The notes beneath the pieces were generated by a model. It did not search any database. It saw nothing but the letters and a program-made list of their open reading frames with translations, and was not told where the DNA came from. The position numbers were made by a program, and so were the translations under genes. This document shows, piece by piece, positions 15,736 through 63,133 of a stretch of DNA of 64,000 bases. How positions within the stretch are numbered: position 1 is the first letter of the stretch; every line of letters starts with the position of its first letter. This stretch comes from Apostichopus japonicus (lineage: Eukaryota > Echinodermata > Holothuroidea > Aspidochirotida > Stichopodidae), in assembly GCF_037975245.1 (NCBI RefSeq), contig NC_092571.1:19366917-19430916 (forward strand). Reading direction: 5' to 3'.

Positions 15736-16017
15736 TTTTAAAAGGGAATAACTGAAATACTTAGACAAAAATATATATATTTGACTGGCATACATATTTT
15801 CATTTTGTTTTTTGGTTACATTTATACTAACGACTTACATTAGAGAACCGTAATCGTTTAACGAATATTCCGGAGGAGATTTTTTTCTTTTACAATTTTA
15901 CATAAACAGCTTATAATCTGAAAACGACATCCGGCAGCTTTATAACGAAAACATAGAAGATAAATTGTGATGAATTATTCTGAATCTATCTGGCGACAGT
16001 TATTGTATGATAATTCA

Positions 16018-16060
<43 letters not shown>

Positions 16061-16067
16061 CATACAT

Positions 16068-16102
<35 letters not shown>
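16018..16102 (+). repeat. (CA)n/(TA)n microsatellite
   Basis: ACACACACACA, then (TA)n, CATACATACATA, and (TA)n again. Compound microsatellite. Confidence 0.92.
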
Positions 16103-16104
<2 letters not shown>

Positions 16105-18985: not shown

Positions 18986-19366
18986 CTTTTTAATAAAAGT
19001 CAGCCAAGATAAAAGCTGGGCACGAAACCCAACCTACTTAACTGAACCACTCTCACCCCCCCCCACCCCCGACCCACTTTCATCAAGATTGTGAATGTGT
19101 GATATAGGTTTTAAGAAAAAGTCACACAGTAAAGAACCTGGACACGAAAACCCTGAAACTGCCGAACGACTGATCCGCTCTCAACCCCAGTCCCCTTGCA
19201 TCGAGACTGTGACTGTGTGATACTTTTTAAGAAAAAGTCACCCAGGAAAGAACCTGGGCACGAAAACCAAACTACCAAACGACTGATCCGCTCTCAGCCC
19301 CAGTCCCCTTGCATTGGGACTGTGACTGTGTGATCATCGTCAGGTGTGTATCACCATTCCCTAAGG
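18986..19366 (-). repeat. three-unit tandem array fused behind the U2 5' domain
   Basis: Three diverged units of about 113-120 bp (about 18986-19106, 19107-19221, 19222-19334) each contain, on the + strand, a version of AAGAAAAAGTCA, then CTGGGCACGAAAACC, CCGCTCTCA and a GTGACTGTGTGAT-like end. Unit 1 is the most diverged. The array abuts the U2-like head, so the whole 18986-19411 block looks like one U2-derived SINE or composite element. Target duplications were not found by eye. Confidence 0.7.
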
Positions 19367-19411
19367 GAACAGATACTACACATGATCTTAGCCAAAAGGC
19401 CGAGAAGCGAT
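19367..19411 (-). pseudogene. U2 snRNA 5' domain (45 nt), truncated
   Basis: Read on the minus strand from 19411, the sequence is the U2 snRNA 5' end: stem-loop I (CTTCTCGGCCTTTTGGCTAAG), then the branch-point recognition segment with GTAGTA, ending at CTGTTC. After that, U2 identity stops: stem-loop IIa and the Sm site are missing. The next bases instead form a new hairpin with the U2 end (TTCCC TTA GGGAA, outer arms GTGTA and TACAC). This is not a working U2 gene; it is the head of a composite repeat. Confidence 0.85.
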
Positions 19412-20141
19412 CACATGGTCTTATAGCTAAACGTGGAGTGCAATGTTTAGTTGCATAACTACATGCATTAAGATACTTATTGATATACAGACTCTGTGTA
19501 CTTTTCGACTGTGAATAGATGAAAGCAAATTAAACAAGAGGAAAAGTAAAAGAAAGGCATGACGTAAGCTAAATCAGTTCAAAAGAAACAACGTCACGTG
19601 GACAAAGACATTTGAAATTCAGTTCTGAAATGTTCAAAAATAAAGAAATATGGCTGCTCTGTAATAATGTGGAATCTACATGTACGGTGTTGTACTTAGA
19701 GCGCCACATGTAGCTCATGGAATTCACTGAATATTCATATCGAATTTTCTCATTTATAGCGGCAGTGACGTCAGTGAAAACAGGTTTATGTAACAATACA
19801 GTCTCAATCAGAACTTAGTGACGCAATTAAAGCGTGATAAATACAATGGATCCGAATTCTTTTAATAAAACATCTGCATGCCGTAAGTATTAGTTTAACA
19901 CGTACGTGTGTTGTTGTACTATAGTGTCAACAGCGACTCATATACAGTGTGGTTTCCCTGCCTCGTATATAGCTGTACACCGCAGACAGTGCTTCGGGTA
20001 GTATATGGCGAATAAGTGGTATAATATATAGAAATTCAACTAATATAGAGCTTGGCAAAAATGAAACAACTTACAACGAGACTGTAACCGTATGATCCTG
20101 ACGATGTCACGTGGAAGTAAGTATTACTATAGTCTCTTGGG

Positions 20142-20699
20142 CAGGGCCGGGTTTAGCTTGTGGGGGGTCCGGGGCCAGAATAGTTTGGGGCCCTTACACG
20201 ATTAGGCCCACTATCTAAGCGGAGCGCCACCATAGGTTGGCTCGTAGCGTGCACGAAAATTTTGGCAGAAAATGCTTCCCAGATCGCTGGAAATGGCACT
20301 TTTTTTACGTTGTTTTTTCTAATGCCCCCCCCCCAGGAATCAATGTTCCGTTTCCATAGGAATCACATGATCGGTGGTTGATAGCTAGAACGTCATCCAA
20401 ATATCTATAGGGATGCCAATTGTTTAGCAAAAACGATACAATTTACATTTGTAAACACTGAATCTATGGGCTAACTTTGTGGTGTCACATGGGTGACAAG
20501 TTACGCAAATGCCGTAGAATAAAGACCACGCATCCCTATAGGCCCCATGTATTTATGGAAAGACAACTTTTGTTCAGTGTGGAGTTTCGAACAAAGGTCC
20601 GTATTTTACATGTTGACCATCGACGGACGGACGGACGGACGGAAAGGCATCTTATGCCTCCATTTTTTCCCGGTGGGCCCCGCCGTAAACCCGGCACTG
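20142..20699 (+). mobile_element. hAT-like non-autonomous DNA transposon
   Basis: The ends are inverted repeats: CAGGGCCGGGTTTA on the left, and CAGTGCCGGGTTTA read inward from the right. The flanking octamers, CTCTTGGG (20134-20141) and CCCTTGGG (20700-20707), agree at 7 of 8 positions. An 8-bp duplication and CAG...CTG ends are typical of hAT. No transposase is encoded. The interior holds a module (20211-20300) found in three other places in the window and a short (GGAC)n run. Confidence 0.8.
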
Positions 20700-21028
20700 C
20701 CCTTGGGACTGGACTGAACCTGGCAGGCAGAGCTAGCAAACAGCAAATTATACTCAAAAGTAGGTATAATGCGGTCACCGCATGCATCAGCCTAATGCGG
20801 GCAATATGCGGGAATTGCGGGAATGAACAAAGTGGGTAATATAAAGTATTGCAATGATACTTAGAAGAGTCCCGCGTTAACGTTTCTGCTATTTTAACAT
20901 ATGCCTTGATTTGTGCAAACAATTAAAATTGCCATTCTCAAGAGTGGTGTACAAAGGGTTGCAATCGTGGGGAAGGGGAATTCCCTCGACTGATTCAAAA
21001 CCAATGTACCATACGAAACAAGAAGAAC

Positions 21029-21063
21029 AGCAAAAAAAAATAAATAAATAAATAAATAAAAAT
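21029..21063 (+). repeat. (AAAT)n microsatellite
   Basis: A poly(A) run followed by about six TAAA units; it may be the A-rich tail of an old retro-insert. Confidence 0.85.
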
Positions 21064-21662
21064 GGCAACTTCCATTTATTGCTTGATTTAACCCCCTGAA
21101 AAATCATGTTGTACCATTAAATGACCATTATAAACGAATGTATGAGTCATGATTCCTTCGTTTCGTGGTTTTTTGTGGTTCTAGATGCCAGCAGACAGGC
21201 GTTTTCACACAGGGACCTCATCGAGAGTCAATGCAAAAATACTACAGGAAAACAGAGAAAGTAACAATTCTCATGAATTAATTAAGTAATTTAACCCGGT
21301 AAAAAAAAAATTATTCATAAAATGACGGAATATAAGAGACTTTATTCTTTCGTTCTCATGACATTTAATGACAATCGAAGTAGTTATAATACAAGCAGCA
21401 GGTGTATTACGGCAGCGCCCTCATTAATTCAATGCAAAAGTACTACACAGCAAAAATGACATAATTAATATCGCTACATTGACCAACAGTGATGTTGGAT
21501 ACGTATTAAAATAGTTTTACTAATTTATATCAAATAACAGGTTCCTTATATTATCGAACTGCACACGCAGTTATCACATCGCACGGCAAAACAATATGGA
21601 GGACTGGTAGTCTAAGTGTCATTTTTGGTGTCATTAATGAAGTCACATCATCCACCACATCA

Positions 21663-21813
21663 TGACGTCAGTCCTGCCAACTCGACGCGCAACGGATACT
21701 GTAGGTATACCAGGAGGCTACACAACTGCACGTGGACTTGCCTTCACGCATGCGCTGCCACCGGTGACCTCTACCTCCAGCTAATACCAACCAGTGACTG
21801 TTTATGCAGTGTA
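21663..21813 (+). promoter_or_regulatory. promoter-like, CpG-containing stretch with a first-exon-like donor
   Basis: A GC-richer island in AT-rich DNA carries a full CRE (TGACGTCA, 21663-21670), several CpGs, an NRF-1-like core (ACGCATGCGC, near 21745), and ends at GCAGT|GTAAGTAAGG, a strong donor. This could be a promoter and first exon of a + strand transcript. No downstream exon was identified. Confidence 0.25.
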
Positions 21814-24800
21814 AGTAAGGTAAGGATTCATTGATTAGCAATTATATTAATCTAGGCCTAACAACAACGGTATACCTTCACTTAGTTATAATAGTCATGA
21901 ATGATTAGAACAATAACACTTGATTGCGTGATTACCAATTATCATATACTCATATATGAGATATTACTATTTAGTTACTTATAGGGCAAAACGTGTTTAT
22001 TCATGGCAGTAGCGCAGCCGCGGGGAAGGGGGTGGGGAACGAGAGGACTAGGCCCCACCAATTATTTATCTCCCATGGTAACCCCCAAAAATCCTATTTG
22101 TTATTAAATAAGTTCGACCTGCCCCACAAGGAAAGCATCGGGCCCTCCAAAAAGAAGTCAAGCTGTGCCCATGAGTCTTGGTAGCGGACGAATACCAATG
22201 TTGCATAATTTTAGGAATGTAACGCAAGCAACAAGTAGGCCTACAGTAGGCCTATCGTAGCACAACGAATACATGCGACTTTGACTTTAACGTTGGTTAC
22301 AAGCCGTATTTTACTACGGTAAGGGGGGCAGGTGGAGCGGGTGGGGCAAGACGATCGACACATGACGTAGCAATGTGAAACAAAGCGAGGTAAGGCGAGG
22401 CAAAACAAAGCGAGATTAGGCAAAGCGATTTTGAAAAGGTGAGCCACATGATTTAAGAAACTTCCTAAACAATAACTTATAATTGTTAATCCAAGATCAA
22501 TAAATCAATTCAAAGTTTGTGTTACTTGTTGATAGTTGATCAAAGAATCGATAATTGTTCAAAAACAGACTGCACAATGCAACTATATGATATCAACTTT
22601 TTGCCAATATTTGGATTTAAATATACATTGTCATACTCTGAACAATAACTTTCATACCCAACTCTTACGTCAGAGACGATGAACATTTTCTTGAAGAGTG
22701 AAGTATTAAACACTTTATCGTGCTATTACTTATTAATCTGTACAAAGGTTCAATATATATATATTTAATAATTCTTTTGTACATTTTTTAATAAGAAATA
22801 AATCTTGAAGACATTTACCCTTACATTCGTCACGTTTTAGCCGGTAAAGAACGAATAATTTATGTTCGTGTTAATTAAAAATCGTAGACAATAAACAATG
22901 TTTCAATTTAACAATAAATAATGTATTAGTGCTTGTGATTTTCTCTTCTGTTGTTATAGCAATTAGTTAATGATTATACTTCTTCTGACATGTTTCAGTT
23001 ATAAAATTATAAAATTCAGTTATAAAACAAAAATAAGGACTTCGAATAATCTCTTTTATCTATCAAAGAAGTAAAGAATTATATTCTTTGTCATTGTATA
23101 GTGCTACCGTTCCGACTTTATTAAATAGTTCTTGAAGGTCATAAGTAATACCCCAAAATATAATATAAATTCAGAAAATGATCACCGAGTCTGAGATTTC
23201 AACAAGCATTGCTACTGCAAACATTAAAGCATTTTACCTCAATGAGATATTTAAATATCTAATTGGACATCCCCAAATGTCTGGGAATAAATTTTAAAAA
23301 AGTCAAATCTCCAGGAAAGAAAATTTGGAAGATTTTAGCAATTTAGGCAGGCTAAACATTTATGGCAAAATTGAAGACGAAAGTAACAGATAGAAGATGA
23401 GAAGATAACATGTAACATCTTAGTAATATCCCAGTTTGAACTAATATCTGTGTTTTGTGTTTAATTTTTGCAATGTGATAGTGTCACACTGGACGATTAA
23501 ATGAAGCATAAACTGGACATGCTTGAAATATAAATGAATCGCTCTATTAGAATTCTGGGACAACTGTTGTTGTTGTATTGGACAAAAAAAGAAAAGGTTA
23601 TGCCCAAGCTTGACCAGAGAAGAAGGACTGGTCAGGGGGAACCACCCTGTAGGCCAGGGGTCAAAATTGGGTGACGGGGAAAGTAAGGAGGGGGCCGGGG
23701 AAGCCAAGGGATATGAACAGCAGAAACTGCAGTTTTAATTTCAGTGAATGCTTCCAAATAAAGTATAGGCTACCATGTTTCAGTGTGTATATAGTGTGTA
23801 TGTCACCTTGTTTCAATATATATATTGTGTAGGTTACCATGTTTCCATACATGGCATAGGCTAATATACCATATTTCTAGTTTTTCAATGAAACAATATT
23901 TTGTTATGCCAAATTGCCAATGTATCTCGTTTTGAAGTTACACAACGTCTTGAAGAATAAAACGTAACTGATTATGTAGAAGAGTCCGCCTTACTACACG
24001 CATCGAAAAACTGAAGTGATATATCGCCCTCTTTAAGTAACAAACGGCGCTCTTCTGATTTTAAATGATCGGATCGGATCAGAAGTGCAATCTGCTGTAT
24101 TTCAGGACACCCACTAAAACGTTATGCTTCAACTATTGTATTGAACTAAGAGCCTGAATGAAGGCCATACATACGAACCCTGTGCAAATTTCATGATCAA
24201 ACAACTGAAATGTACTGTTAATGAATAGGGGGTGGTGATGGTTGGGGGGGGCGGGAGGTAGGTAGTTGAAATACAGGTATATGAAACACAGACGTGCACA
24301 TAATTTCAATGGTGTGAGTATATGGGGATGGGGATTTCCCCGGCTGAATTAATTAGGTACATGATCCTTCTGGAAAGACCAGAGGCGCGTCCGGTGATTT
24401 ATAAGTATGTGTACAGTGACTCCCATGTAGAAGGCATCCCCCCCCCCCACCGACAAATGGAAGTTTAGACCACAAGTGGCACATCCTGAGGCATATTTAC
24501 ACTATAAACTGGACCCGACAGTGTGTTCTAATTATTCTCAGACTGAATGTTAAAATTACCCCGACTAATCATTCTTTTTCACATACGATAGAAGTGGGTG
24601 GGGGGGGGGGTACACTCTTTGCGAACGCCAGTGTGTTTGTGTGTTCCATTAAATATGACGTTTTTCCTATAGAAATTAAGGACGGCAGATTAGTTAGGCC
24701 TAATTTATTAAGTTAAGACAGGGAAGGTTGTTTGTGTGACATCATTTTCTTTTCTTACATTTTTTCCAGGGGCTTTGTCTTGTTAATAAACGTGGTACTC

Positions 24801-31974: not shown

Positions 31975-32541
31975 TAGTTTAGTTTAGTATAGTATAAAAA
32001 AAATGGATCGAGAGGGACACTCAATGCCCTATCAAGGAGCATAGAGGAGAAAACAAATGAAGACACAAACACTCAGACCCGATTACAATGCTTAAAGTGC
32101 TTGTCCAAAGCATACTTAAACCCATTCACACTACTTGCAAGTACAACTTTCTCAGGCAAATCATTCCACTCATTCACAACCCTATTAGAACAAAAGTTAT
32201 GCAAAATATTAATCCTACTTTGTGATTTTTGGATTTTTAAGACAATGACCTCTGGTACAACTATTATTAGCAAACATAAAAAAGCTGAATCAAGTCACCA
32301 CGTAACCTCCTAAGTTCCAGTGTGGTGAGATTCAACAGTTGTAACCGCCTATAATAAGGACACCCTTTAAGGAACTAATCATCCTAGTAGCCCTCCTCTG
32401 GACCTTTTCAAGTACTTCCTTATCCCTAGCAAAGTATGGGTTCCAAATCTGCACAGCATACTCCAGATGAGGCCTAACCAACTGCTTATAAAGCCTAACA
32501 ACTATGGCCTCTTTCAGAAAACTGAAGTTCCTCTTGATCAT
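31975..32541 (-). mobile_element. 5'-truncated non-LTR retrotransposon, CR1/L2-like, copy 2
   Basis: The minus strand encodes the C-terminal part of a LINE reverse transcriptase (RLYKQLVRPHLEYAVQ, then LEKVQRRATRMISSL, and later VVNEWNDLPEKVV), then a short 3'UTR ending in TAAACTAAAC-type repeats. Against copy 1 (62372-63133) it lacks two bases after ISSLK, which shifts the frame, and has an internal deletion of roughly 60 bp. It is dead and lies just downstream of the secreted-protein gene. Confidence 0.85.
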
Positions 32542-32877
32542 AACATAATATGATCACTAACCATATCAACATCGAAGATGATACAAGAAATTATCTCTAA
32601 AGTACTAACAATAAAATCACTGCCTACATAGTATTCTAAAAGTAAGAACGATACGAAGATGAAAGGAAGAAAAAACAAAAGTATACCCAACCGAAGCCCG
32701 TCAGTTTTCAAGTAGTTTTACTAAAACGAGAAATAACCGATATATTGTTTTGAAGATCTCACAGATCTAAAAGGATTTGGACCGACAAAGGACATCATAT
32801 TTGTTATAACCTCTAATTCGTAGCTCTTGCAGATTTTCTGGGATATTTAATTTGTTATTTTACTGTGAAGTTTGATA

Positions 32878-33042
32878 TTACAGCAAATCGTTAAGCCTGT
32901 CCTCAAATCTGTTTTCAGCGGTATCATGAGAATACTCGTTTCTTTCGGGTAGGCCATATCTCATGACGTAGGTGAATATCACATCATACCCAAAGCGTAA
33001 TTTCAATGTTTCAGGAGGCATACATTGGCTGTTCCATATTTC
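32878..33042 (-). CDS. exon 7: terminal exon
   Basis: 54 codons and TAA, after the acceptor TTCCAACTGTAG. It contains Cys338, a hydrophobic strand (DVIFTYVM) and a charged C-terminal helix ending in two Leu. Because the stop lies in the frame predicted by six upstream exons, the C-terminus is well supported. Confidence 0.8.
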   Translation of the reverse strand, partial: EIWNSQCMPPETLKLRFGYDVIFTYVMRYGLPERNEYSHDTAENRFEDRLNDLL

Positions 33043-36000
33043 CTACAGTTGGAAAAGAAAAGAGATGTTATATTATAGAAAAGACGTTCACAACTGAAAC
33101 GAATGAGTTATATATTTCAGAATGAGTTATATATTTCAGAATGAGTTATATATTTAAAAATGAGTTACATATTTCAGAATGAGTTATATATTTCAAAATG
33201 AATTATATATTTCAGAATGAGTTATATATTTCAGTTAAAACTGGATTGTGCTGACAAATCTGATAAATCGGTAGCATGTGATGTTAGGTTTACAGTAAGA
33301 ACTGAGGATATGTGTAAATTCCAACAAATCCCAATAACTGGATTTGTTGGAATGATACATATCATCAATTCTTACTGAAATCCAAATAGCACATGCTACC
33401 GATTTATAGCACGATTCAGTGTTTTTACTTTTGGTACAAAACTTTACAATTTACAGTAGTAACTGTGTTCTCTGTGTGTATCGCGTGCATATTTGCAACT
33501 GTGAAATGCGAAAATACTCTACCACGGTCACTTTCTACATGACATTTCCATGACGTTGATAGTCGAAGTTGTCAAATTTTATCAAAATGAAATTGAGCAA
33601 AGAAAGAAATGTCTTTGATTTCAATTTCCCAGTGAGTAACCTTTTGTTCGTTTACTGAAATACTTAACAGATCTTAAACTTGTCAGAACTCTCGCAGCAA
33701 ACAGGTTCGTGACATATAAATGCACATTGAATAAATCTGCATGTTAAGATGAATTTTATTGTTTTGCAATTTTTGTTTCAGAGTTATCCATATTACAAAA
33801 GGTAATAATCTCTCTGATAAAATTGATTCAGGTTTGAATCTCACTCGGGCGAATAAATGTACCTTTAATACTAACTTCTCAAAAAAAGGTAAACTCCATC
33901 CTCCTAAAAGAAAATCAGTACAACGTACCCATTATCGTACAGACGACTTTACTGTGGGTATTTGTTTTTATTTATTGATAGAAAACTGAAAAGTAAACAC
34001 CGATGGGAAGTTCGCCACCAGTAAAACAATTTATTATTGATTTAACCATATTTAGAACAATTAATCATCTTAGAGAAATGAACATACAAATGTTTTTTTT
34101 TCAGTAGGCAGACAGATTATATAAGTAACTTTAATATTCTCCAAAACTGATAACGAAGGAAACCCTATAGCAGGGTTTCCCTAACTTTAACCCCCCAAGA
34201 ACCCCCTGTGGTTGTCAGAGTTGTCCACGAAGCCCCAACTTTTCGAGACACGATCTGAGTCATTATTATACTATAATACGCATAACAGTGCTTCGTAAAA
34301 GATCAAGTTCATAGTGTAATATTGAAATGACAAAAAAAAAAAAAACAAGTGATGAACAAATATTTATTTGGAAACTTCAAGATCAGATCAGCTCTTTATC
34401 TTCACGACGTACTGTCATGCGTACATCAAATTCACCAAAGTCATGCGGTCTGTGTCTGTTTCATAATTCAGTTATTTATCACATGCACGGTACGGTATTA
34501 CTATGACAACATATGCGTATGGAACGCGAAAAGAGTTTGTCGATAGGTACGACTTTTATACATTACTAAATTATAAAGTACAAAAAGTACTCTAGTTTTG
34601 ACTTTCAGAAACGTCTCACAACCCCCTAGCTGGGATGGACTCACGCATCCCCTGGGGGTTCATGCACCCCAGTTAGGGAACCCCTGCCCTATAGAGATTT
34701 AAAAAAAAAAAAACATTTGAATACTTTCAAAGTACTTAACGACAATTACGTTTATAATAAAACAGTTGGAATATGAAATTTGCAAGTGAAATACGTCACA
34801 GAAATATGTGTAGTAGAACAGAAACATTTCAACGATTTATTGTTCCTCATGGAACGATTCAAATTCGTTTTTGCTCTAGAATTATGAAACAAGAAAGAGT
34901 CTTGTCCTGCTTGGAGGAATATACTATAAAACTTCTTAAAATAGGTTTCACACTTGGGGACGCTCTTGATGCCAATGTATCATACAATAAACAAAAAAAG
35001 GTTTTTTTTTAAGATTGCATGCATGCTTGTTATAAATAGCGATGTTATGAAGAAGTGCTCAAAATAAGTTTAATAATGAACCACAGATTTAATAAAACGT
35101 ACTGTTCATGATTCACATTAGAGGGATATCAAAACTTATAATAAAGTACCTTGGACATCCAGTATAGGACGCAATGTCATCGGAAATAGGTACGGTATTG
35201 CATAAACTCTCTAAAAACAAAAACGTTTATGCTCCTTCAATGTATAATTCATTTTGACAATGGCCTTTAATATCTTATACTGGGGAAGAATCTGAGTCCC
35301 TATAGACAGCTTACAACAACAGGGCGCAAGATGGCCTATATCCGCGACTATCATGTTTGAAATTTCATCCCAAACTCAATTCAATTTTCGAGTTGACAAA
35401 TGATTAGATTATTTAAATCTAAGATTAATAACCTTATTTGAAATGGAAATCACGTGACCAGCTTCTTTTAATTTTGAAAATAGTTGGAAGCATTAGTTTA
35501 GAATGTTTACTTACGGGACATGTTCTTATGGAACGGAAGACTATTTTGGTCACGAGTGAGACTTAAGATATCATGTTGACGTAGGTTTGTCTCCCCCAAG
35601 AGGCCGTGTCTATAAAGTTTGACGTGTGGTCAGAACATAATCTGAGGTACTCTACATTAGGAATACAAACTCTTTCTTGCCTTGACGAAAATAATGTTAG
35701 ATCATGGGGTTTGTACTAATTAAATAGGATCAGTAAGTCTTTGAATAATATAAAGTTGAGTACTAGTATGGTATTAAGTGTTATTTCAAAGGGTTGGTCA
35801 TCTATCAAAACTGTGCTAGCTTATGAAAAGGAGATCACGGTTGTAATAGAAAGCAACGATAAGTTGGCCCCTTTTGTTGAAGTCTCTCTCCAAACATCAA
35901 TAGCAGATGACTTTCTCGTTTTAACGAGTTAATGAGAACTATAATTGCTGTTTGTATGAGTGGGTGCGGTAAGGGTTAGCGATGGGAACCAGACGGTTGA

Positions 36001-36851
36001 TGTCCATGTTTGTGTAGAGAACCAATGAGGTGTGTTGTGTTGATCAGTAAGGGGGCCAGTAATAGGGTCAGTGAGGGGGCTAGATGTATGGGTCATTAAG
36101 AGGATTAGTTCTGGATGAAAGGTCAATTACGTTTTACATGGGTTATCATTAGAGATTATTGTCGGTGTTCAGTAAAAAGACCAATGTTCCTTGTCTCTCA
36201 GATCATCAGATGTGGGTGTCAGTGAAAGATGGGCTTTCGGAGTATCAGAAGTGAACTTATTCTGGAAATGAAAAAAAAAACTTGTTAGAATAGTTACCTC
36301 TTCTTGTCTGTTATTAACCAGAATTCTCCATTCAAATGTAGAGTCGACTTGACCAAGTCCATCAATAGTTTCAATGAAGAGACAACTGTCGGTCTTGTTA
36401 AGCCGTATATCTAAAGGACGTGTTTGCTGCAGTGATGAAGAACAATAAGTAAACAGAGACATTATTCTATTGATTCGTATTTACTCGTTATAGTGTTGTT
36501 TATTCCATTCACATAAGGACACTGGCAGGCAGTCACCTGTAGTGGACCCACAAAATAGCTAATTATCTCCCCAAATCAAATCATGAAGTAACAACCTAGA
36601 CATTATATTACTGCAGACTACGTTTGTTCGTTTCCCCCCCCCCCCCCACAATTCAGAAGGTTGAAAGGTCAAAAAGATATATATCCATCAACATATATCC
36701 ACGAAGATGGTATATTAGGTTTCTCTTCTAATTTAATATTCTTACGTTTTTGAGCCAGTAATGAAATCGTTGTAAAGAAAATATTCAAAAGAAAACAACT
36801 GGTCAAAATGAGAGTACTTATGATACAATAAACATACACACACACTTATTT

Positions 36852-36904
<53 letters not shown>

Positions 36905-39900
36905 AAACGGTAAATGAGTTGGATAAAATATACGAATAAATATCTTGAGCTTCCTAAAACGTTCCCATTTAACTCATAGGAATGATACAAAATTCAAGAT
37001 TGACTGCTTCATAACTGTTCTGTTAGGTTATTCAACAAGCTACCATGTCCCCGTCAGCCATTATTTGGATGTTAGAAGATCTTTATCAGGTGACAGCACA
37101 CGTTTAAGTATTTTCTTGTTGGTATTATGCTATAAAATATTAACATGGTCAGGTTGTTCCTACGTAGCCGTACAATGAATGCCTCAAAATCTATGCTCCC
37201 AGCGTCCCCCTAAAAGTCCCAAAGGGAAAATGTTCGTTTAGGACTTTTTTCCTCAATTATAACCTTTCCCATCTAATAACCTGTCACAAGGGATTACGTG
37301 TAAGGAAGAACAAACTCTTCCCAGAGGCCTTGAAATACGAAAACAAAATAACCATTATTAACAGCTACAGCAAGAACATTTTTGTCAATTTAGTATTAAA
37401 TCAACATTACCTATACAGACATGATGATGAAAGAAATAAACCTATTACTTTGAATGGGTCTGACATCAGGTGTCCATTCTCCTTAAACATAAAACCCTAA
37501 CGCCTAGAAGGAAGGTGGGGGGGGTGAGGGGGTGGGGGGAGAATGAAGTTGCACACATCAGGCTTCCATTCTCCTTAAACATAAAACCCTACCACCAGGG
37601 TGGAGGGGCGAGGGGGCTGGTGGTTCACAAGCGTCACATATTGTAAAAAATGTATTTACACAATTAAATATAAAGGATTGTATCTTGTTGATAGATATTC
37701 TAAGACAATATTTAAATATTTGCTTAGCAGTAGGAATATCACATAAGTCTGTCTCGATTTATTACTGATGTGCTTTTATACTTACGTACCCGAGACAATA
37801 AGTCGGTTAGAAGATTCATTAAGTGATAGTTTGGTGAGGGCTCTATGTCATATATTTCCCTGAAGTTAGCATCAATCACTTGGACCGTGATTGACTAAAG
37901 AAAAAAGAAGACAAAGTAACGGATTACAAAATTGCAAAATTTTATAATAAAAGGAGTCTTCCAAGAACTTCGTATATATACTACAATTTCAATCATGTGC
38001 CTTTGTCGTTTACCTCCATTTCATTAACAAAGTCTGTTCAAAGTATCTCTTTCGAGATCCGGCTTTACGAATCACAAATGATTTCTAGTTGGTTAGCATC
38101 ATGTTTGATCTCTAGAGTAAGGCAAATATGTCACCAAAACAGAACTAGTATTGTTCGATACAGGTGAAAAACGCCTACAGTGGAATTACACGCTTTTTCT
38201 ATATTATCTTTTATGAAGTTAGATTTATTACTCTAATTCGACTGTTGGAGCATCTTTTTAACTATACCAACCACAAAAATCGTATAGATCATAATAAGTG
38301 CAAATGTCACTCTGAGCACAGTGACGTCACTGATTGTTACCGGGGTAATATGGTGTAACTGAAAGTGCTTTGTGGTTACTGAAAGTAACTACGAGTAATG
38401 CTGAGCATCTCACAGTATTATAAGTTATTTATAGAACTAAAGCATAATAATTGTCTTACTCACCGGTGGTGGTTCTGACCCTTGCCATACCGGAAATGAT
38501 GTGATATCTGAGGGCGTAAACTCCATGGTTGGTAGTGAAGATATTGCACTAGGAGATGCCCTTTCACCGGTATGATCCAGGGATGCTTGTAAATGTCGAG
38601 GTAAGATTCGGTCTCCCCGGGGCTGCTCTGGAGGTAAGCTGTCGAATGGTAGTTGCTTCGATGGTGAGTTTCGAGGCTGATATGGTAAAGTCTGAGTTGA
38701 AGGTAGCTGATCGTTGGTTGGGAACTTTGCAATATTAGAATGAAGAAAATGAAATGTTTAATTAAATGTTTGTCACTTTTTATGATATATTGATCACTCT
38801 AATAAGTTTCGAGTTGAGTTGTAATCCCAAGGACAGAGTGAGGTGGATATTTGGAAAATTATTGCCTTTTTTTCCCCCTCATTCTGACAACTATAAGTCA
38901 ACTTTAATGACGTGATGGAGTTACGAAAATGTCATTGCGCATTGTCGTGTGTTTGGTCAGCAATTTCGGTGGTTGTAAGAACTAACTATAACACAAAGTT
39001 ATAATAGTTATAATATAAAGTTATTCAAAGCAAGTTAACACACTAAGACTCTCTGTAATAATAATGATACGAGTGTTACTTTCGTTTTCATATTGAATTA
39101 AAACGTGCGGTTCTCTTTGAACTTGATTTCATAATATGAAACTTGACAGGTGAGTTAATGAACTAAGTTATTTTTTCAGATCTAAGTAACATAAATGTGA
39201 TAAAGTCAATTACAAAATCTGATTGAAATAAAAAAAGTATACTTTGAAACATTTACCTCATGTTTCGGAGTACTAGGTTCAGATCTATAAGGTTCTTCTA
39301 TTCCAGAATTCGTTGGCAATCGCAATTTCTTTGCCGAGTTATCTCCTAAATAGAGAAAGGGAGCAGTTTTGTTTAATGAAAATGTATCTTGGAATGAAAG
39401 TGGTATTGCTTTTAATTAAATGTTGCATATTAAAACGTTCGCTCTTATCAAAGATAGAGTAAATAAATAATCACGTGGTGGTGGCTTGTCGTATTGAAGG
39501 AGTGAACATTTTTGAGAACAGGAATTTGTGAAGTAGAGTGATGGGAAGGGGGTAGGGGCATTAATTGGTAAAGGACAATGCAGAGCGAAGACCAATACTG
39601 GTGGAGGAGATTATTGACGGGTGATATGTTTTAGTGAAGGTAGATAATGCTTGCTGTGTGGGGTACAGCAATTGTGAGAGGACATTAGTATACGAGAGAC
39701 AATCATTTATCAATCATTTAGCGGACAGTGCTGGGTGGCGAACAGTAATTGGGCAAGGGGGACTTTTGTAGAGGACAAGTAATGGCAGGAGAGTTGTGGT
39801 TTCGAAAGTTACTAGTAGAGGGTAGTGCTGGGACTAAGTGATTGGTGCAGAGGAATATTCTGTGAGGGGCTTTGTGGAGGGAAGGGGGGGGGGTGGTAAT

Positions 39901-42900
39901 AAATGGAGGAAGTCCTTTGAGGATGGGTGCTCTTTGTGGAGGACATACATTGGGGGACAACCGTGCCTGATGGAGACCAGTAGTTGTTGTACGACATTAC
40001 CTCCATATTTATTACACAAGACTGGGATCTCGTTCTAATTCAAAGTGCATTCGAAGTTTCCAATGGAATTGAATGAACGTGTTCTACAGTTACTACGTTG
40101 TTTAGAACTATAATGAATGCGAAATGTAATGTTTATGGCCGAAAAGTGTTATACAATGAACATAATTATACCTTGTGACCTCAGAGAACTATAAATGATT
40201 CACTTTCGAGAAAGCACACTACGTTGTCTTCAAATTTCATGGTGTCAATTGCGTCATTCATAGATTTAACTATACTTTTGTAATCTGGCAATTTGGACCT
40301 TGAATTGTCACATTTGTGTCAACTTAATGGAAGCAAGGTTCCACTTTGTGTCAATCTATGTTATTCTATTCATAGGGAATTGTAAGAATTTGTCAACGGA
40401 ATTGAAAGTTGGAAAACGTCTTTTGGACAGCAGCAAGTGCGTTCGTTCAAAATGATATTGAATTACTTAGTCAATTAGAGTAATGGAAGTTGTGGACACA
40501 ACGAAAAATATTTCAGGAGTTGTACATTTATGCGTAGTGCTATGACTACCTGCTGTAATACAACAATTAAGTATACTAGCTACAATGATAAAGACGATAA
40601 ATTGAAGAATGAAAACAAACTATGTGCCCGCTCAGTGATACATAGAAAAAAATGATAATGTCGAAAGTGAGAAACTACGCACTTCAATTGGCCTCATAGT
40701 TAGACAAGCACACTTTGTGTTTATCAGTAGAAACTCTAAAACATCACGGAATTGTAAAAAAATTAATTGACAAGCTATTCTTAAAAGTCATCATTATCGA
40801 GGAAGTTAGTTTTGCTTCCGGAGGAAACAAAATAAAGGATAAAAGAAAGGAAGCATGAAGACGAAAACCAAATAGAATTATTAAAGGTAGCTGCAACAGC
40901 TAGCTATTGTTGACAAAATAATTTAAATGCATGGTACATATCACATGCATCAAAAATATATAAGAGTTATTCCGACAAAATGTCTTCAAGTTTAAAAACA
41001 CAAAACGTTGTCATCTAGTTTCTGTTCTCACTATAAAACAAAGTAGGCTAATATCCACGAATCGTGCTATTAAGATATTTGTGTTACAAGACACCTGTTG
41101 GCTTTTTTGTGTTTTTTGTGTGTTATTAATGTGTTACCATTAAGTAATATGCATGAGATATGTTTCTGTATCTGTTGGAGCAACACCCAATGTCAGACAT
41201 AAAGAGCATCCCGGGGAGGTTTCAACTCAAGTTTTTCAAACGAGCAGAAATTGCATAACCATGTTTTATAATTAGCCATTTTAGAACACGAGCCTGCAGG
41301 CGATTTTTGCCTCCTTCGTTGGCGGCATTTCTCTGCGTATTGTATATTATACGGATTAAGACATTCGGATGCAGGGCATTGTTACACAAATCATGTTATA
41401 TTTCGCTGTATAAGATATTATTAAACACATGGAACCTGCTCTTAGTAACACGTGAGAGTCATATACCCTAGTCAATGAATATCCTATCATCTTTCAATTC
41501 ACTTATTGTTGACTCCCTTTATTCTTTTGAGAATCGTTTCCAAGAAATGATTTCGTTGTGTGACCTGATTTTGGTCTGAGTCAATACCAAACTTTATGGA
41601 TTTACTTTATATGTTACATCACTGAAAGCTATAACTATCACCTGGATAAAACAAGCACAGCAGTTCTGTTAGATTGTTTCGGTCGAAGATTTCACTATGA
41701 ATGATGAGACTTTGTTAGTTTTCTGTCAAATATCTTGGTTAAATTAAATTTGTTAACGTAATAATAAATGGCTTGCATTGACGGCAATGCCTAGAAGACT
41801 TCGGATTCAACAGAATGGTTAACAATGGCAATGATGTAAGCCGCATATGCTGGATAATAAACAGTTGATAAAAGACCATTAAAAAGTCACAAATTATTCA
41901 TTATACAAATCGCCCTTGATAAGGTAAGAGAAGCACCCTTATATATTCATTTTGACAAAGATATATGATATCAGCAAACAGACTTCCCTGGCCGTCATGA
42001 TGACGTCATTATGACGTAATAGAAGCCAAACTATGCACATCACGTTGTGTGGGAGAAGAATCAACTTATATATCGAGCAAAACATGTTGAAATCACTGAA
42101 ACGATCCACCTACAGAAATACGTAAATTTGATGTTTTACTTTATTTCAAATCATGAAATTCTTTTTTTTTTGTCACATGAGATTCCATATGTAATTGATT
42201 AAACAAACAGAACACGTATGCAATATTTAAACAATTCGTTATTTAACGATTCAACATTAAAAGGAAAAGGAATAAAACAAACTATGAACGTTAAATTTGT
42301 TTGTTTTTTTTCCTTGAAACTACACCTTTAGTGAAACTGAGGCAAAGAACTTAAGGTTACAACTGGTGACTTAGATTTGGTAGGAATGAAGGCACGGTGA
42401 CATATTCCTACAGAATACCTTATTCATAGATTCATTTTAGTATTTACCGATGAGGTCAAATTTATCCCTTTATCGCAATGACGTGGTGGCGAAGATGAAT
42501 AAGTAACACAAGGAAAGACACCAAATAACAAATAGGACGAAACTTTTCATAATCTAACTAATATAGTTATTAACCTCCACTTGCATATCTTAAGGGCTCA
42601 GTCTCGTTTAATGTCTAGTTATTATTCCTTAAAGTATCTGTATCATTCTGCTCATTCAACTTGTACTATATTTTCTTCTTTACCAGGGAGTCTTCTACTC
42701 TGTTAAGCCAATTCAGGCTTTATAGAATACTTCCTTTCACATTGTAATTTTTTGGTGATAAAACAAATAAATAATCAAGCAAAACAAACAAACAAATGTT
42801 TAAGCGACAGCTAATCCAACGAACAGGAATACTTCAATATTTACAAGTTGATCGTTGTTATGTCAAAGAGAAGAAAATTGACATAAATTGAGATGCACTA

Positions 42901-45162
42901 TGCAATGACTTTGCAGGGTACACGACATAATGAGGAAATGAACGGAAAATAAATAATAAAAGTTTGCAATCAAGATTTTTTTTTTGAAAACACATAACAA
43001 AGAAGGTGTATGCATTTTCTGACTTCATGAACCCATTGAGGCGTTGGTACGTTTCAGAATTTTCCAGTTTAAATTTTAACATATTTAAAAATAGGAACAT
43101 TATAGGAAATAAATTAATACGAAAAATATAACATGAAGAAATGAAGTTGTTATAAAACAAAGAGTGGCAAATTTATAACAACTGTTCTGAGCCTATAGTA
43201 TGAACCTAGTATGACCCTAGTATGACCCTAGCATGACCCTAGCATGACCCTAGTATGAACCTAGTATGACCCTAGGATGAACTTAGTATGAACTAAGTAT
43301 GAACCAAGTTGACTACTCTGTATGGCGACAAAACTTAGCCAAAGGTCTGTTTCTGTATAACTAGGTCGGACCAAGTTCATTCTTGCAATTGTATACATTA
43401 CCAAACAACACTTTGGCAGCTGTAGACTATACAGATGCGGTGCTAAAAAAAACGCAGAGCATTTTGAAGTTTGTTTTGATAATGTATATTCTGATTATAT
43501 CATTACGTAACCAGAATTACATCATTATTTCATGGGACACAGCAGGCGCGGCGGAACGGGAAAATTATTGGGAGGGGGGCTAATATGTGGAGACTATCTA
43601 AGCGGAGCGCCACCATCGGTTGGCGCGGAGCGTACAAGAAAATTTTGGGTTTTTCAAACCCCCCAGATGGCCGGAAACGGCACTTCCCGAGTGTTTCATG
43701 CTGCGAATACCTAGCCCTAAAACATGGGTCTCAAGCCTGCAATTTATCAGATTGCACGTAAAAATCTGTAAAAACATTGTAATTTGTATATTCGATGGTG
43801 TTTTAAGAGAGTAGCTATTACTCGACGTGTACTCGCAAAGACGTTTTTGAGTGTAGTAAATTACTACTTGCAATTAAATGCAATAATTACAAGGGCGTCG
43901 GAAGCTATTTTTGATTGGTACGGCGGTTCAGAGTGTGGCCAACTATCATAATTATCGGGGGGACGTTTGGTAGGTCAAACTACGCTACGCGCCACCATGG
44001 TTGTCGCGTAGCGTAATGGAGAAAATTTTGAAAATATGCCTCCCAGATTGCAGGAAATGGCACTTCCCGAGCTTGAAAACAAGACCCCTGCCATGCCAGA
44101 GTAGTCACATTTAGCCTACTTGCCGTCATCATTATTGAAAATTATTGAAACATATACCTCCGAGATATTTTTTCCCCATTTTTTAGTCCTACTTTTTTTT
44201 TTTTGCGTCGTGAATATTGGTCCGGCGTTCGCCGGACCTGCCCGTAACGGCTCCGACGCCCCTGAATTAAATAAATGTCATAAGAAAAAACAGAAAGCAT
44301 TCCTTAATGTCAACAAATGGGTAATTCCAAAACCATGTGCAGTTGCCAACAAATTTCTATGACCTAGCACTGTCATCATGTCATGAATGCATGTACCCTA
44401 TACAGTACAGGTGAAATGCTAATATTGTGTTTTTGTTTGTTTAATAATTGATTGCGTTTAAAAATAAAGCCATGTTCCACGCCTTGCGTGTACTCGTAGT
44501 GTAATCGCAAATGTTGATGAGTGTAGCGTTTAGCTTATTACCCTCTTATTTAAAACAATAATATTCGATGAGGCATGATACAGACAATCAATTATCATAT
44601 TTAATTATTACACCTATATAGTATACGTGTGCATCGGACAGATCGACAAGTATGCATTAAAAAATGGGCAGATGCACGTTTCGGAGCCTTGGTAAATATT
44701 GGGGGGGGGGGGGCTTATCATGCATTTGCCCCCTCAACTTTTTCATTGGGGGGCTGAGCCCCCCCAAGCCCCCCCGGTTCCGCCGCCACTGGGACACAGT
44801 ACTATATTTCATAAAGTTTGATTTTACATTTCTATAGAAACTATAAGTGCTACTTACGTATATATTCTCCCAGTTTTGCGTTTTTCCTCTGCCTTTGTCT
44901 GTATTGCTTTGAAGTAGTACGTACCAAATTAGCAATGTCCTGTATAAGTGTATGTAACCTGTGCTTGAAATCTTGATCAAGCTCATGCTGCTGGCAACGA
45001 AAAGAGGGAGAGATGTGGATATAGAAAGAGACAAATAGAGAAAGGGGTGGGGTGGGGAGGGGCGGGGTGATAGGTAAGGCAACAAACTATTACAAAACTG
45101 GGTGAAGAAGTTTATCTACAGAAATAAATGGACTGAGTTCAGATGTTGTGTCAGTAAAGCTG

Positions 45163-45212
<50 letters not shown>

Positions 45213-48127
45213 TCTAGTCACGTTTAATTTCGTAGAGGAAATGAGTACTTTGAAAGACAGATAGGCAATTATAGAGAAATGCGCTTTAGGAAACTTCTCT
45301 AAAGGCGTTCACTTACATTTGGCAAGAAGAAAGTACTTTCTTTAAATGAGACTACTAAATTGTCTATTAGATATGAAATTAGATGAAACGACGTTGCAAA
45401 TATATTTCTCCATTTAAAACATTTGCGAAAATTGCGACTCTTTGAGGTAGGTCTAATGGAGTGGAATAAATTTCAATTATCATATCAATAAAACTAAACC
45501 AAACCCGTTCCCTTCAAATCCTTACTGTAGAAAATTGGAATAAACAATCGATTATAGAAGGTAAAATATAATAATTTGATGTGGTCTGTTTATCGTTGTT
45601 AACATACGCCCATAACATATTCAAGGGCCCCATCTGGACTGTTGCTGTAAGTAATTGTTTATATTCGTTTCTTAACTTTGGCAGTAAACCTCAAATAAAT
45701 ACAATTTTTATGTGAACTACTGATGTGGACAATGCTGTTAAGTTTACCCCTTAAGACATACTCAATCACAATCAGAAGAGAAATCGTGGTCACATGAAAG
45801 GTTAGAAGTTCATTGTTCAAAGTAGCTCTAAGAAACTTCAAAACCGTTTTATTGTGTTTCCTGATCATTGTTTCACCTAATAGCAAAAGTTGGGTAGAAT
45901 AATTGTGTCAACTTAAACATATATTCCGATGGTCCACGTTCATATCTTTAGGTTGCCCGGAACCACACACTTAGAGAAGTTTGTATCACGAAGATATGAT
46001 ACTTTGGAGAGATCTTTTATATGCATCTCAAAACAACAGAGTGAACGATGTTCATTAGGTCAAAGTTAGTCCGTTTGTATTACACCTGAAAAGGGGTAAA
46101 ACATCAATTTCTGGACGCTGGACGGATTCAGTTTGTTGTTAAAGTTTATCCAAAATACTATTATTACCTTTTACCTAAAAATATTATTTAAAAGCGGAGA
46201 AACTCTCCCTCCTATAAATGAAATTGGCTGAATAAGAGCTTAATCCTTACTTCTTAATCCTTAATAAAGTGCTTAATCCTTAATGATAGACTCCAGCTCT
46301 TGTCGATATAAGTGCTACAAATAAAGACACGCACCGTACATTAGATCTCAGGTAGGAAACAAAAAGGGATTTATATCTTTCAAGAATCCTCATAGCTTAT
46401 CTCAAAAGATTCTTATTCAACCTGTCCGATTGATTTCAACTCGTGCGAAATTATGACGCATTTTATTTCATTTTGAACTGACGTTAATTCAAAGATCTCA
46501 CTTGATACACTGATAAACAAACAAATCCCATTTACGAGTGATCGTTTCATACGCCATTGTTCTGTTTCTATAGAAAGATAATTGTGTCATCATAACACAT
46601 AAAAGAGAACCTAAAATGCATCGCAGTACCAAACGTCATCGACATTTCATGCACGATTATGAATCTTTGAAGCGCAAAATAAATGACTTTACATCCTGCT
46701 AAGAGTAAGCTTAAACGCAGGTATAATATGATATGATGCATTAATCAAGCACATGTAATTAGTAACGTGTTATTATTACGTGAATAGCTACGTTGATGTT
46801 ATCTATGTATTTAGATCAGTTGACTGTACAAATTGTATAAATTAATGTCATATGATTTTCCGTTTTTACATTGTTTGTATTGCTATAGGAATAATCGAGC
46901 GAATATATGTTGCTTCTTTGTTGCAACGAACAGCTTTAAAAAGGAACAATGACTTGCGGAATTTGTTCTTCCAAAGTTTAAGTCATTTGACGAACATTTA
47001 CTTCCAAACATAATGCGGTATTAGTGTTAATAATCACAGATTGGTTAGAACATTTTGATCGTTTAGATTTTCTATAAATAATAAATGTATACGATTTATA
47101 GCATTTCTTTGTAATGGTACAACATTATTCAACTATTTTGATCAATTACCATCAATAAACTTCATTATTCATTAAACAAAACACGTGTCTGTTAAATCTG
47201 ACGTAGAAATTAAGAAAGGAAAATTCTGATAAATACTTTCATTCAGCTTGTCATTCAGCCTCTGAAGAAGATCCTGCTAGGATCGAAACGTCAGGCCCTC
47301 TTTACTTTTACACATTCTCTTACACAGGCTTCTTTATAAGCAGTTTGCTAACAGTTTTGTTTTATTTTGAAATATTTTCATCATCAAATTAGTTCCGTGT
47401 TTTTTACTATGGAGGTTAGTCTTGGTTTTCCGTTCTGTATGTAGGTTACATTAACAGTTCTACAAGAAACCTGGAAGTGCATGTATAGTTGTTCAGTAAT
47501 ATACGATTAAGTAGGCAAGAGGGGCGTATTTGATATGCCTTACCAACCAATCACATTTATAACCTAATTTGGGGTCACTAAAGTGAGAAAACAACGTGTT
47601 AATCGATGTCTCCAAGATTTCTAGATTTCTAACAATTCTTTTCGCACGTATAAAAGTTCCCTTTTCCCTGCAAGAAATAATATACTGGACCAAAGTAAAT
47701 ACTAAACCAAACTTTTAGTCTGGATGCATGGCAAGTGGGTCGTGTTCTACTGACGTCATTAACAGCCCGAAATTATTATTTTCAACAATACACTAAGACG
47801 AAAGGAAATTGATCATTCCATTTTGGTATCGTGTGTGTTTATACTCACCGAGTAACGGGTATCATAGACATTTTGCAGAAATCTTGAGATAGATTCGGAT
47901 GGGTCTATTGTCCTCTCATTCGTAGTTTCTCCTCTTCTTTTCATCTCTGAGAGGTAGGGATTCTCTTTGTCATGAAAGGCAGGCCAATCGGTATTGGGAA
48001 ATAGATAATCGTTTAGGGAGGATGACATCACCAGAGGTTTAGCGGAGATGGAATGAGTTCGATGTATGAACCACAATATAAAGAGAAGCACTTGACAGTA
48101 TCGCCAGTGTAGAGTAAAAGTTGCCAT
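32878..48127 (-). CDS. seven-exon gene for an unrecognised secreted protein of about 385 aa
   Basis: Seven open blocks on the minus strand, each bounded by AG and GT, join in consistent phase (0, 1, 0, 0, 0, 0) from ATG 48127 to a TAA at 32878. The predicted protein starts with a basic-then-hydrophobic signal peptide (about residues 1-28), so it should enter the secretory pathway. Residues 94-137 are a highly charged, helix-prone block with a basic run (RQRQRK). Residues 138-253 are rich in Pro and Ser and look disordered. Residues 254-385 look folded, with Cys303 and Cys338 (possible disulfide) and one sequon at Asn298. The start of exon 5 faintly resembles the first strand and helix of a SEA domain, but this is weak. 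I do not recognise the family. Extra phase-0 exons in the long introns could have been missed. An AATTAAAT about 30 nt after the stop could serve as a variant poly(A) signal. The splice pattern is strong; the function is unknown. Confidence 0.8.
33104..33235 (+). repeat. 20-bp satellite, 6-7 units
   Basis: Head-to-tail copies of GAATGAGTTATATATTTCAG with one or two changes per unit (for example AAATGAGTTACATATTTCAG). It ends exactly where the fold-back element begins. Confidence 0.85.
33236..33428. mobile_element. fold-back (MITE-like) element
   Basis: Two imperfect arms of about 90 bp meet at a short centre (near 33332-33339). GATAAATCGGTAGCATGTG on the left is mirrored by CACATGCTACCGATTTAT on the right, and ATTCCAACAAATCC by GGATTTGTTGGAAT. 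No coding capacity. It sits in intron 6 and directly follows the 20-bp satellite. Confidence 0.75.
34171..34686 (+). mobile_element. hAT-like MITE with perfect 8-bp target duplication
   Basis: The left end is CAGGGTTTCCCTAACT and the right end reads inward as CAGGGGTTCCCTAACT, so the terminal inverted repeats are about 16 bp. The exact octamer CCCTATAG flanks both sides (34163-34170 and 34687-34694). Length is 516 bp with no transposase. It lies in intron 6 of the minus-strand secreted-protein gene. Confidence 0.88.
35940..36120 (+). repeat. degenerate GGGTCAGT-type repeats
   Basis: GATCAGTAAGGGGGCCAGT, ATAGGGTCAGTGAGGGGGCT and GGGTCATTAAGAGG share a core at about 20-bp spacing. The Thr/Pro-rich minus-strand frame here follows from the repeat. 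It lies in intron 6 close to exon 6. Confidence 0.5.
36298..36426 (-). CDS. exon 6: C-terminal domain, first Cys and sequon
   Basis: 43 codons between the acceptor CATCACTGCAG and the donor GTAACT, phase 0 at both ends. It carries the only N-glycosylation sequon (Asn298, NKT) and Cys303, then beta-like segments (CLFIETI and FEWRILV). Confidence 0.8.
36855..36902 (+). repeat. (AT)n microsatellite
   Basis: About 24 AT units in intron 5 of the secreted-protein gene. Confidence 0.95.
37466..37615 (+). repeat. diverged duplication with G-rich spacer
   Basis: TCCATTCTCCTTAAACATAA with AACCCTA occurs twice, about 90 bp apart. Each copy is followed by a G-rich run (GGTGGGGGGGGTGAGGGGGT in the first). 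It is in intron 5, so the transcript has the C-rich strand. Confidence 0.7.
37790..37894 (-). CDS. exon 5: start of the C-terminal domain
   Basis: 35 codons between a strong acceptor (TTTTTTCTTTAG) and the donor GTACGTAAG, phase 0 at both ends. An alternating hydrophobic strand (ITVQVI) is followed by an amphipathic helix around YHLMNLLTDLL. This pattern is loosely like the first strand and helix of SEA-type domains, but that is only a weak inference. Confidence 0.78.
38464..38724 (-). CDS. exon 4: Pro/Ser-rich region
   Basis: 87 codons, open throughout in the frame set by exon 3. The donor is GTGAGT after CCACCG. The acceptor is TTGCAAAG behind a T/C-rich tract and is weaker than the others. 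The composition (many Pro, Ser, Gln and Thr, no Cys) suggests a flexible linker. The opposite strand is also partly open, so the strand call rests on the splice sites. Confidence 0.75.
39257..39345 (-). CDS. exon 3: short linker exon
   Basis: Two bases complete the Arg codon split with exon 2, then 29 codons follow to GAG and the donor GTAAAT (phase 0). The acceptor is CTATTTAG. The translation is polar and Pro/Ser-containing, with no Cys. Phase agreement with exon 2 on one side and exon 4 on the other is the main support. Confidence 0.72.
39500..39990 (+). repeat. purine-rich degenerate repeat region
   Basis: Many diverged GAGGACA, GGACAGTG and GAACAGTAATTGG motifs at roughly 25-40 bp spacing, with G runs. 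The open frames here on the minus strand are Pro/Ser-rich by composition only. It lies in intron 2, just beyond exon 3. Confidence 0.4.
43198..43310 (+). repeat. 11-bp minisatellite
   Basis: About ten units of TATGACCCTAG with variants TATGAACCTAG, CATGACCCTAG and TATGAACTAAG, increasingly diverged to the right. Located in intron 2 of the secreted-protein gene. Confidence 0.85.
43594..43690 (+). repeat. shared transposon module, copy B
   Basis: Matches the module inside the hAT-like element at 20211-20300: CTATCTAAGCGGAGCGCCAC, then GGTTGGCGCGGAGCG, AGAAAATTTTGG and a CCCAGAT...GGCACTTCCCGA end. It follows a CAGGCGCGGCGGAACGG sequence at 43544 that may be the terminus of another fragmentary element. 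Confidence 0.65.
43890..44264 (+). mobile_element. TIR-bearing non-autonomous element
   Basis: The left end is CAAGGGCGTCGGAAGC; the right end reads inward as CAGGGGCGTCGGAGCC. The inside contains a near-palindromic hairpin module (43981-44015). A clear 8-bp target duplication is not visible, so the superfamily is only probably hAT. It lies in intron 2 of the secreted-protein gene. Confidence 0.6.
44690..44792 (-). mobile_element. end fragment of a G-rich hAT-type element
   Basis: Read on the minus strand from 44792, it starts CAGTGGCGGCGGAACC and continues into runs of G (GGGGGGGCTTGGGGGGGCTC). CAGTGGCGGAACC-like ends are common in animal hAT elements. The opposite end was not located. Confidence 0.5.
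44858..44990 (-). CDS. exon 2: charged helical block
   Basis: 43 or 44 codons plus one base. The donor is GTAAGT after ATATAC (phase 1). The acceptor is a tandem CAG-CAG following a pyrimidine-rich tract; both sites keep the frame and differ by one Gln (exon start 44990 or 44987). The translation is rich in Lys, Arg, Gln, Asp and Glu, with regularly spaced Leu and Ile, and ends near KNAKLGEYI. Confidence 0.75.
45167..45211 (+). repeat. (AT)n microsatellite
   Basis: About 22 AT units just upstream (minus-strand sense) of exon 2, in intron 1. Confidence 0.95.
47258..47296 (+). ncRNA. hammerhead-ribozyme-like motif, Penelope-type
   Basis: The order fits a minimal hammerhead: GCCT (stem I strand), CTGAAGA core, A, GATCC-TGCTA-GGATC (5-bp stem II), GAAA core, CG, then TC and AGGC (stem I partner). 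One extra A sits between CTGAAGA and stem II, so activity is doubtful. Similar GAAACGTC motifs mark Penelope-like elements, known to carry hammerheads. No reverse transcriptase or GIY-YIG domain was seen nearby. It lies in intron 1 of the secreted-protein gene, on the opposite strand. Confidence 0.5.
47849..48127 (-). CDS. exon 1: signal peptide and N-terminal region
   Basis: 93 codons from ATG 48127 to TCG, followed by the donor GTGAGT (phase 0). The N-terminus has basic residues, then a hydrophobic core (QVLLFILWF) and small residues, which is a typical signal peptide. The rest is polar, with a FLQNVYDTRYS stretch before the donor. Just upstream of the ATG, a pyrimidine run ends in CCAAG (AG at 48137-48136). 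It may be an acceptor that places the exon start at 48135 and implies a separate 5'UTR exon further up. Confidence 0.8.
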
Positions 48128-62390: not shown

Positions 62391-63133
62391 AAGTTTACAT
62401 ACAATCTTAATTGTGTGGAGTTACAGGAGGTCTCTGTTGAAAGAGACCTAGGTATCTACATTGACTCATCTCTGCAACCTTCTAAACATTGTCTTGCTAA
62501 AAGCTGCTAAAAGAGGTAATAGGGTTTTAGGTATGATAAAGAGGAACTTCAGTTTTCTGAAAGAGGACATCGTAGTTAGGCTTTATAAGCAGTTGGTTAG
62601 GCCTCATCTGGAGTATGCTGTGCAGGCTTGGAACCCTTATTTTGCTAAGGATAAGGAAGTACTTGAAAAGGTCCAGAGGAGGGCTACTAGGATGATTAGT
62701 TCCTTAAAGAGGGTTCCTTATTATAGGCGGTTACAACTGTTGAATCTCACCACACTGGAGCTTAAGAGGTTACGTGGGGACTTGATCCAGGTTTTCAAGA
62801 TTGTGTATGGTTTCGACAATTTATCCTTTACCGACTTTTTCATGTTTGCTAACAGTGGTTGTACTAGAGGCCATTGTCTTAAACTCCAAATGTCGCATAG
62901 TAGGATTAATATTCGGCATAACTTTTTTCTAATAGGGTTGTGAATGAGTGGAATGGTTTGCCTGAGAAAGTTGTACTTGCAAGTAGTGTCAATGGGTTTA
63001 AGAATGCTTTAAGCATTGTAATCGGGTCTGAGTGTTTGTGTCTTCAGTTTTTTTCCTCTCTCTATAGGGTCCTTGATGGGGACTTAAATGTTCCTCCTGA
63101 TCCTTTTTTCTACTAAACTAAACTAACTAACGT
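62372..63133 (+). mobile_element. 5'-truncated non-LTR retrotransposon, CR1/L2-like, copy 1
   Basis: Homology starts at 62372, within the right arm of a perfect palindrome, and covers the end of the reverse transcriptase (VERDLGIYID, RLYKQLVRPHLEYAVQ, KVQRRATRMISSL, LKRLRGDLIQVFKI), then a 3'UTR ending in ACTAAACTAAACTAACTAAC. One extra A near 62500 and one missing base near 62930 shift the frame, and a 13-bp deletion near 63013 removes codons present in copy 2. It is a dead copy. Confidence 0.87.

Follow-up and report, generated by a model that had tools for sequence, protein, structure and literature searches.

A likely seven-exon gene for an uncharacterised secreted protein in the sea cucumber Apostichopus japonicus

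The window, the whole 64,000-nucleotide stretch of the Apostichopus japonicus genome that was analysed (C11:19366917-19430916), contains at 32878-48127 seven blocks that splice in phase into a frame of 386 residues, from ATG to TAA. An earlier note on this DNA had proposed seven in-phase exons with AG/GT borders from start to stop; the structure is borne out, with all blocks on the minus strand. Each of the six introns is of the GT...AG type, their phases are 0, 1, 0, 0, 0 and 0 (the second intron being in phase 1), and the 386 codons are free of stops and frameshifts.

Ranked among all GT or AG sites of the window, the six donors of the model fall within the top 0.03-5% and the five acceptors other than that of exon 4 within the top 0.4-1.7%. 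Exon 1 (48127-47849; residues 1-93) supplies the ATG, a signal-peptide-like start and a KRR at residues 63-65, and ends at a GTGAGT donor (top 0.53%). Exon 2 (44990-44858; residues 94-137; acceptor top 0.68%, donor top 4.97%) encodes an amphipathic helix-like stretch and the basic run RQRQRK (residues 124-129; minus strand, 44883-44900); the tandem acceptor CAGCAG in front of it makes Gln94 optional and keeps the frame. Exon 3 (39345-39257; residues 138-167; acceptor top 0.39%, donor top 1.51%) starts with residue 138, which is split by the phase 1 intron. Exon 4 (38724-38464; residues 168-254; donor top 0.03%) encodes a linker rich in Pro, Ser and Thr that carries an RGD (residues 203-205; 38611-38619). 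Its acceptor is weak (-5.2 bits, top 57%), and alternatives at 38706 and 38691 would remove 6 or 11 residues; the 5' edge of this exon is therefore uncertain among 38724, 38706 and 38691, all of which are in frame. The C-terminal domain starts with exon 5 (37894-37790; residues 255-289; acceptor top 1.70%, donor top 0.61%) and continues in exon 6 (36426-36298; residues 290-332; acceptor top 1.52%, donor top 1.28%), which contains the sequon N299-K-T (36399-36391) and Cys304 (36384-36382), and in exon 7 (33042-32878; residues 333-386 and the stop TAA; acceptor top 1.61%), which contains Cys339 (33024-33022). An ATTAAA 27 bases past the stop (32846-32851, minus strand) is weak evidence of a possible poly(A) signal; an AATAAA is found 942 bases beyond the stop.

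The window also contains several repeat-like elements. Intron 6 contains a MITE-like inverted repeat with 51-base arms that are 86% complementary (33263-33313 and 33357-33407), part of which (about 33232-33300) has at least 47 further matches in the genome. Intron 1 carries, on the plus strand at 47262-47292, the sequence CTGAAGAAGATCCTGCTAGGATCGAAACGTC, which resembles the end motif of Penelope-like elements. A short tandem array with a unit like CTAGTATGAC occupies 43190-43310. Two frames, at 32335-32553 (minus strand) and 62452-62940 (plus strand), carry RLYKQLVRPHLEYAVQ...NPYFA, similar to the terminal part of LINE reverse transcriptases; a Pfam search with the plus-strand frame gave nothing significant.

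The signal-peptide-like start described in the earlier note is consistent with the sequence features of residues 1-28, which by eye comprise a hydrophobic core some 11 residues long and a possible cut at SIS/AK. The best 19-residue hydropathy of the protein, 1.24 at residues 3-21, lies in this segment and is low for a membrane anchor, and no transmembrane segment was seen. Hydrophobic moments are highest at residues 100-125, in exon 2. Pro makes up 18%, Ser 14% and Thr 8% of the linker (residues 139-254), which contains the one RGD, at 203, of which about 0.05 would be expected in the protein from its composition. The C-terminal part (residues 255-386) is acidic (pI 4.55) and, as previously described, has two Cys (304 and 339) and one sequon, N299-K-T; the third Cys of the protein, Cys11, lies within the signal region. 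Basic sites are KRR at 63-65, RQRQRK at 124-129 and KK at 143-144. An ordinary protein of the secreted or extracellular-matrix kind, as yet uncharacterised, is the most likely product.

The protein might instead be a prohormone or a growth-factor precursor, cut at KRR or at RQRQRK to free an active C-terminal part, which we regard as rather unlikely. The signal-peptide-like start, the dibasic sites and an R-X-X-R at RGDR 203 are compatible with such a precursor. However, the cleavage-like site reported in exon 2 stands only as a basic run, because RQRQRK does not contain a strict R-X-X-R; the only other R-X-X-R in the protein, RQTR at 289, precedes Pro. By eye, a neuropeptide precursor's repeated peptides between dibasic sites and its Gly-basic amidation site are absent. 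A TGF-beta-like cystine-knot growth factor has six to nine Cys in its C-terminal domain, whereas the two present here, Cys304 and Cys339, allow no cysteine knot, and neither Pfam nor NCBIfam provides a family match.

It is also improbable that the chain consists, wholly or in part, of chance or decayed exons that are not expressed as a gene. The number of well-bordered exons argues against it. Strong-splice candidates were defined as internal exons of 80-320 bases, open in some phase, with an acceptor of at least 4.0 bits and a donor of at least 1.4 bits. The gene strand has seven within the span of the gene, compared with a mean of 0.70 and a maximum of 3 in 60 dinucleotide shuffles; across the 112,750 bases of the remaining window, both strands included, there are 10 (five per strand), a density of 1.35 per 15,250 bases. 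Six of the seven are part of model exons (exons 2, 3 and 6, exon 5 with two donors, and the 3' part of exon 1), and in each of exons 2, 3, 5 and 6 the phase required by the model is open. The seventh candidate, 47667-47544, is open in phase 2 only and is incompatible with exon 1. The uninterrupted 386 codons and a genome search that places the exons nowhere else likewise speak against chance, whereas the weak exon 4 acceptor, a weak codon bias and a higher-scoring chain elsewhere within the window speak for it.

The last of these points comes from a dynamic-programming gene-finder that was blind to the model. Run with generic splice matrices and a generic mean amino-acid composition rather than values measured in this species, it recovered exons 2, 3, 5, 6 and 7 exactly, together with the exon 1 donor, at an intron cost of 9, and began exon 4 at 38691. 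It departed from the model in starting at Met34 instead of Met1 and in adding a 69-base exon at 44261-44193; at cost 12 it left out exon 5, and at cost 6 it returned 12 exons, several of them additional to the model. The gene scored 52.8 at cost 9, against 19.0 for the largest of 60 shuffles and 23.9 for the best chain on the opposite strand of the same region, and 33.8 against 13.0 for shuffles at cost 12. In a scan of 48 segments, each 17 kb long and read on both strands (96 segment-strand pairs), the best minus-strand chain outside the gene reached 27.9 (17.0 at cost 12), but an 11-exon plus-strand chain at 13287-23738 outscored the gene (59.1 versus 52.8 at cost 9, and 34.5 versus 33.8 at cost 12). 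Because of this chain, the score is less telling than the shuffles had suggested: it counts in favour of the gene without setting it apart from other real sequence. Better evidence comes from the number of strong-splice exons; the plus-strand chain contains a single strong-splice candidate (15119-15204).

The plus-strand chain may be a repeat or a gene in its own right. The minus strand of the same part of the window has a match to U2 snRNA (19328-19411; 53.3 bits against a gathering threshold of 46) that spans the whole snRNA model in only 84 bases and is probably a shortened pseudogene. At lower coordinates, the gene-finder picked a possible Cys-containing coding exon on the plus strand (6120-6330; YWQLCTELDACPEK), and the frame around it (6110-6367) has zero Pfam matches.

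Codon-level support for the gene is weak, or at most modest. Codon statistics were trained on 20 of 30 kinase segments, after removal of six with internal stops (L037-L040, L046 and L049) and four near-duplicates (L045, L047, L048 and L050); its sequences are conserved and long single exons are over-represented among them, so that it may misjudge a fast-evolving gene. Per 100 codons the gene scored -5.6 bits, whereas each of the 20 kinase segments, when left out of the training, scored higher (3.4 to 50.8); with training restricted to 11 segments of low GC3, the gene scored -2.0 against 6.0 to 17.7. Among 20,000 null chains built from stop-free stretches of equal lengths, the fraction that scored at least as high as the gene was 0.047 with the 20-segment training and 0.033 with the low-GC3 training. 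The GC content of the gene is 0.48, 0.40 and 0.39 at the first, second and third codon positions, respectively, and by amino-acid composition the model's frame ranks first among the six possible frames in all seven exons. Taken alone, the statement that the seven-exon gene is real is made with considerable confidence.

The gene appears to be single-copy. A search of the whole genome (671,581,487 bases in 35 contigs) with the full protein returned nine matches from 10 candidates, seven of which are its own exons, the other two having E values of 0.144 and 6.08; no second copy was found. A sensitive tblastn search of the 40 kb on either side likewise found no tandem copies; apart from the seven exons, it gave six matches, with E values of 2.4 to 9.7. 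The match with E 0.144, on C8, spans residues 77-164 with 25% identity and was taken as chance rather than as a paralogue; the open frames around it, which have no database match, look like those of a Penelope or GIY-YIG type element. Beyond the end of the window, about 20 kb away on the plus strand, lies a fibronectin type III stretch (L053:660-1067; E 5e-4), and downstream of it, on the same strand, a frame that has a hydrophobic segment and a DUF4808 match (L053:1995-2399; E 9e-6). Both matches are just below the curated cut-offs, and their arrangement resembles the layout of FNDC4/FNDC5 (irisin precursor).

Searches of Pfam, NCBIfam and PDB sequences brought up no credible relative, in line with the earlier remark that the C-terminal part suggests no family. 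Pfam gave nothing beyond chance for the whole protein, the C-terminal domain or four pieces, and NCBIfam gave zero matches for the protein. The Pfam entries DASH_Hsk3 (0.19 and 0.049) and DUF2357 (0.11) fell below the curated cut-offs and were dismissed as chance. PDB sequences gave zero matches for the C-terminal domain and one non-significant match for the whole protein, to an AAA ATPase (E 0.15), which was dismissed likewise. The part of the literature that was accessible contained nothing bearing on the gene, which has no name to search by.

A SEA-like fold had also been proposed for testing in the C-terminal domain, and a small secreted mucin-like protein with a glycosylated linker and a very divergent SEA domain would fit the linker rich in Pro, Ser and Thr that precedes the domain. 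By eye, exon 5 has a strand-helix pattern (ITVQVIDANF...PSPNY) and, together with the first part of exon 6, a spacing like that of MUC16 SEA domains (27 residues from Tyr/Phe to Cys in both), and SEA half-domain exons are present in this genome. The resemblance is rejected, however, by both a sequence profile and full-length alignment. PF01390 matches neither the domain nor the protein at E values up to 10. On a profile of seven solved SEA domains, the C-terminal domain scores -0.7 bits; among 5000 shuffles, 4370 of them reported, 1541 do as well or better. The whole protein reaches 1.2 bits, against 17.3 and 19.2 for two sea cucumber SEA exons. Full-length alignment gives the domain a z of 0.06, a result matched by 249 of 600 shuffles; three left-out SEA controls, which had themselves helped to set the alignment columns, reach 10.9, 12.15 and 12.4. 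The G-S cleavage motif is absent, the nearest approach by eye to a site of the G-S-V-V-V type being DGLGQVDSTF; such sites sit between strands 2 and 3 and are missing from many SEA domains. A SEA domain is accordingly very improbable here.

Three SEA half-domain exons (L018, L019 and L020) occur within about 190 kb on C13, at 11.9-12.1 Mb; the first two are near-identical, and the three perhaps form a local cluster of SEA genes.

On balance, the locus is probably an ordinary single-copy seven-exon gene for an uncharacterised secreted protein of about 375-386 residues with a role in binding. As predicted from its sequence, a signal peptide of about 28 residues would direct the product into the secretory pathway. 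The mature protein would then have three parts, namely an N-terminal part resembling an amphipathic helix, a flexible linker and a C-terminal domain, about 130 residues long, in which Cys304 and Cys339 are probably joined by a disulfide bond. The linker may serve as a disordered, glycosylated spacer, perhaps presenting the RGD to an integrin, and the C-terminal domain would probably bind an extracellular partner. Cleavage at the basic sites is possible, although no strict consensus implies it. More tentatively, the C-terminal domain (about residues 255-386) could be the founder of a family absent from Pfam and PDB, an extracellular ligand or adhesion module of echinoderms or holothurians with one disulfide.

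If the gene is expressed, it provides a further uncharacterised extracellular protein of an animal that serves in regeneration and aquaculture research. Animal genomes contain many such orphan secreted proteins, and therefore the gene alone settles no open question; its importance would grow if the C-terminal domain turned out to have a new fold or to be common to echinoderms.

The protein can be compared with three known kinds of protein. With SEA proteins (PF01390; for example, MUC1, MUC16 and TMPRSS11D) it shares an apparent location on the secreted side, a linker rich in Ser, Thr and Pro adjoining a domain of about 120 residues and, by eye, the spacing in exon 5, but it differs in having no G-S autoproteolysis motif, no profile or alignment signal and no visible transmembrane segment. 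RGD-bearing extracellular matrix proteins, as a general kind, likewise carry the RGD inside a flexible proline-rich stretch; here, however, it is one short motif with a likelihood of about 5% by chance, in a protein without a Pfam family match. Taxon-restricted secreted proteins of echinoderms, also taken as a general kind, resemble it in the lack of a detected second copy or family, in their few Cys and in their signal-peptide-like start.
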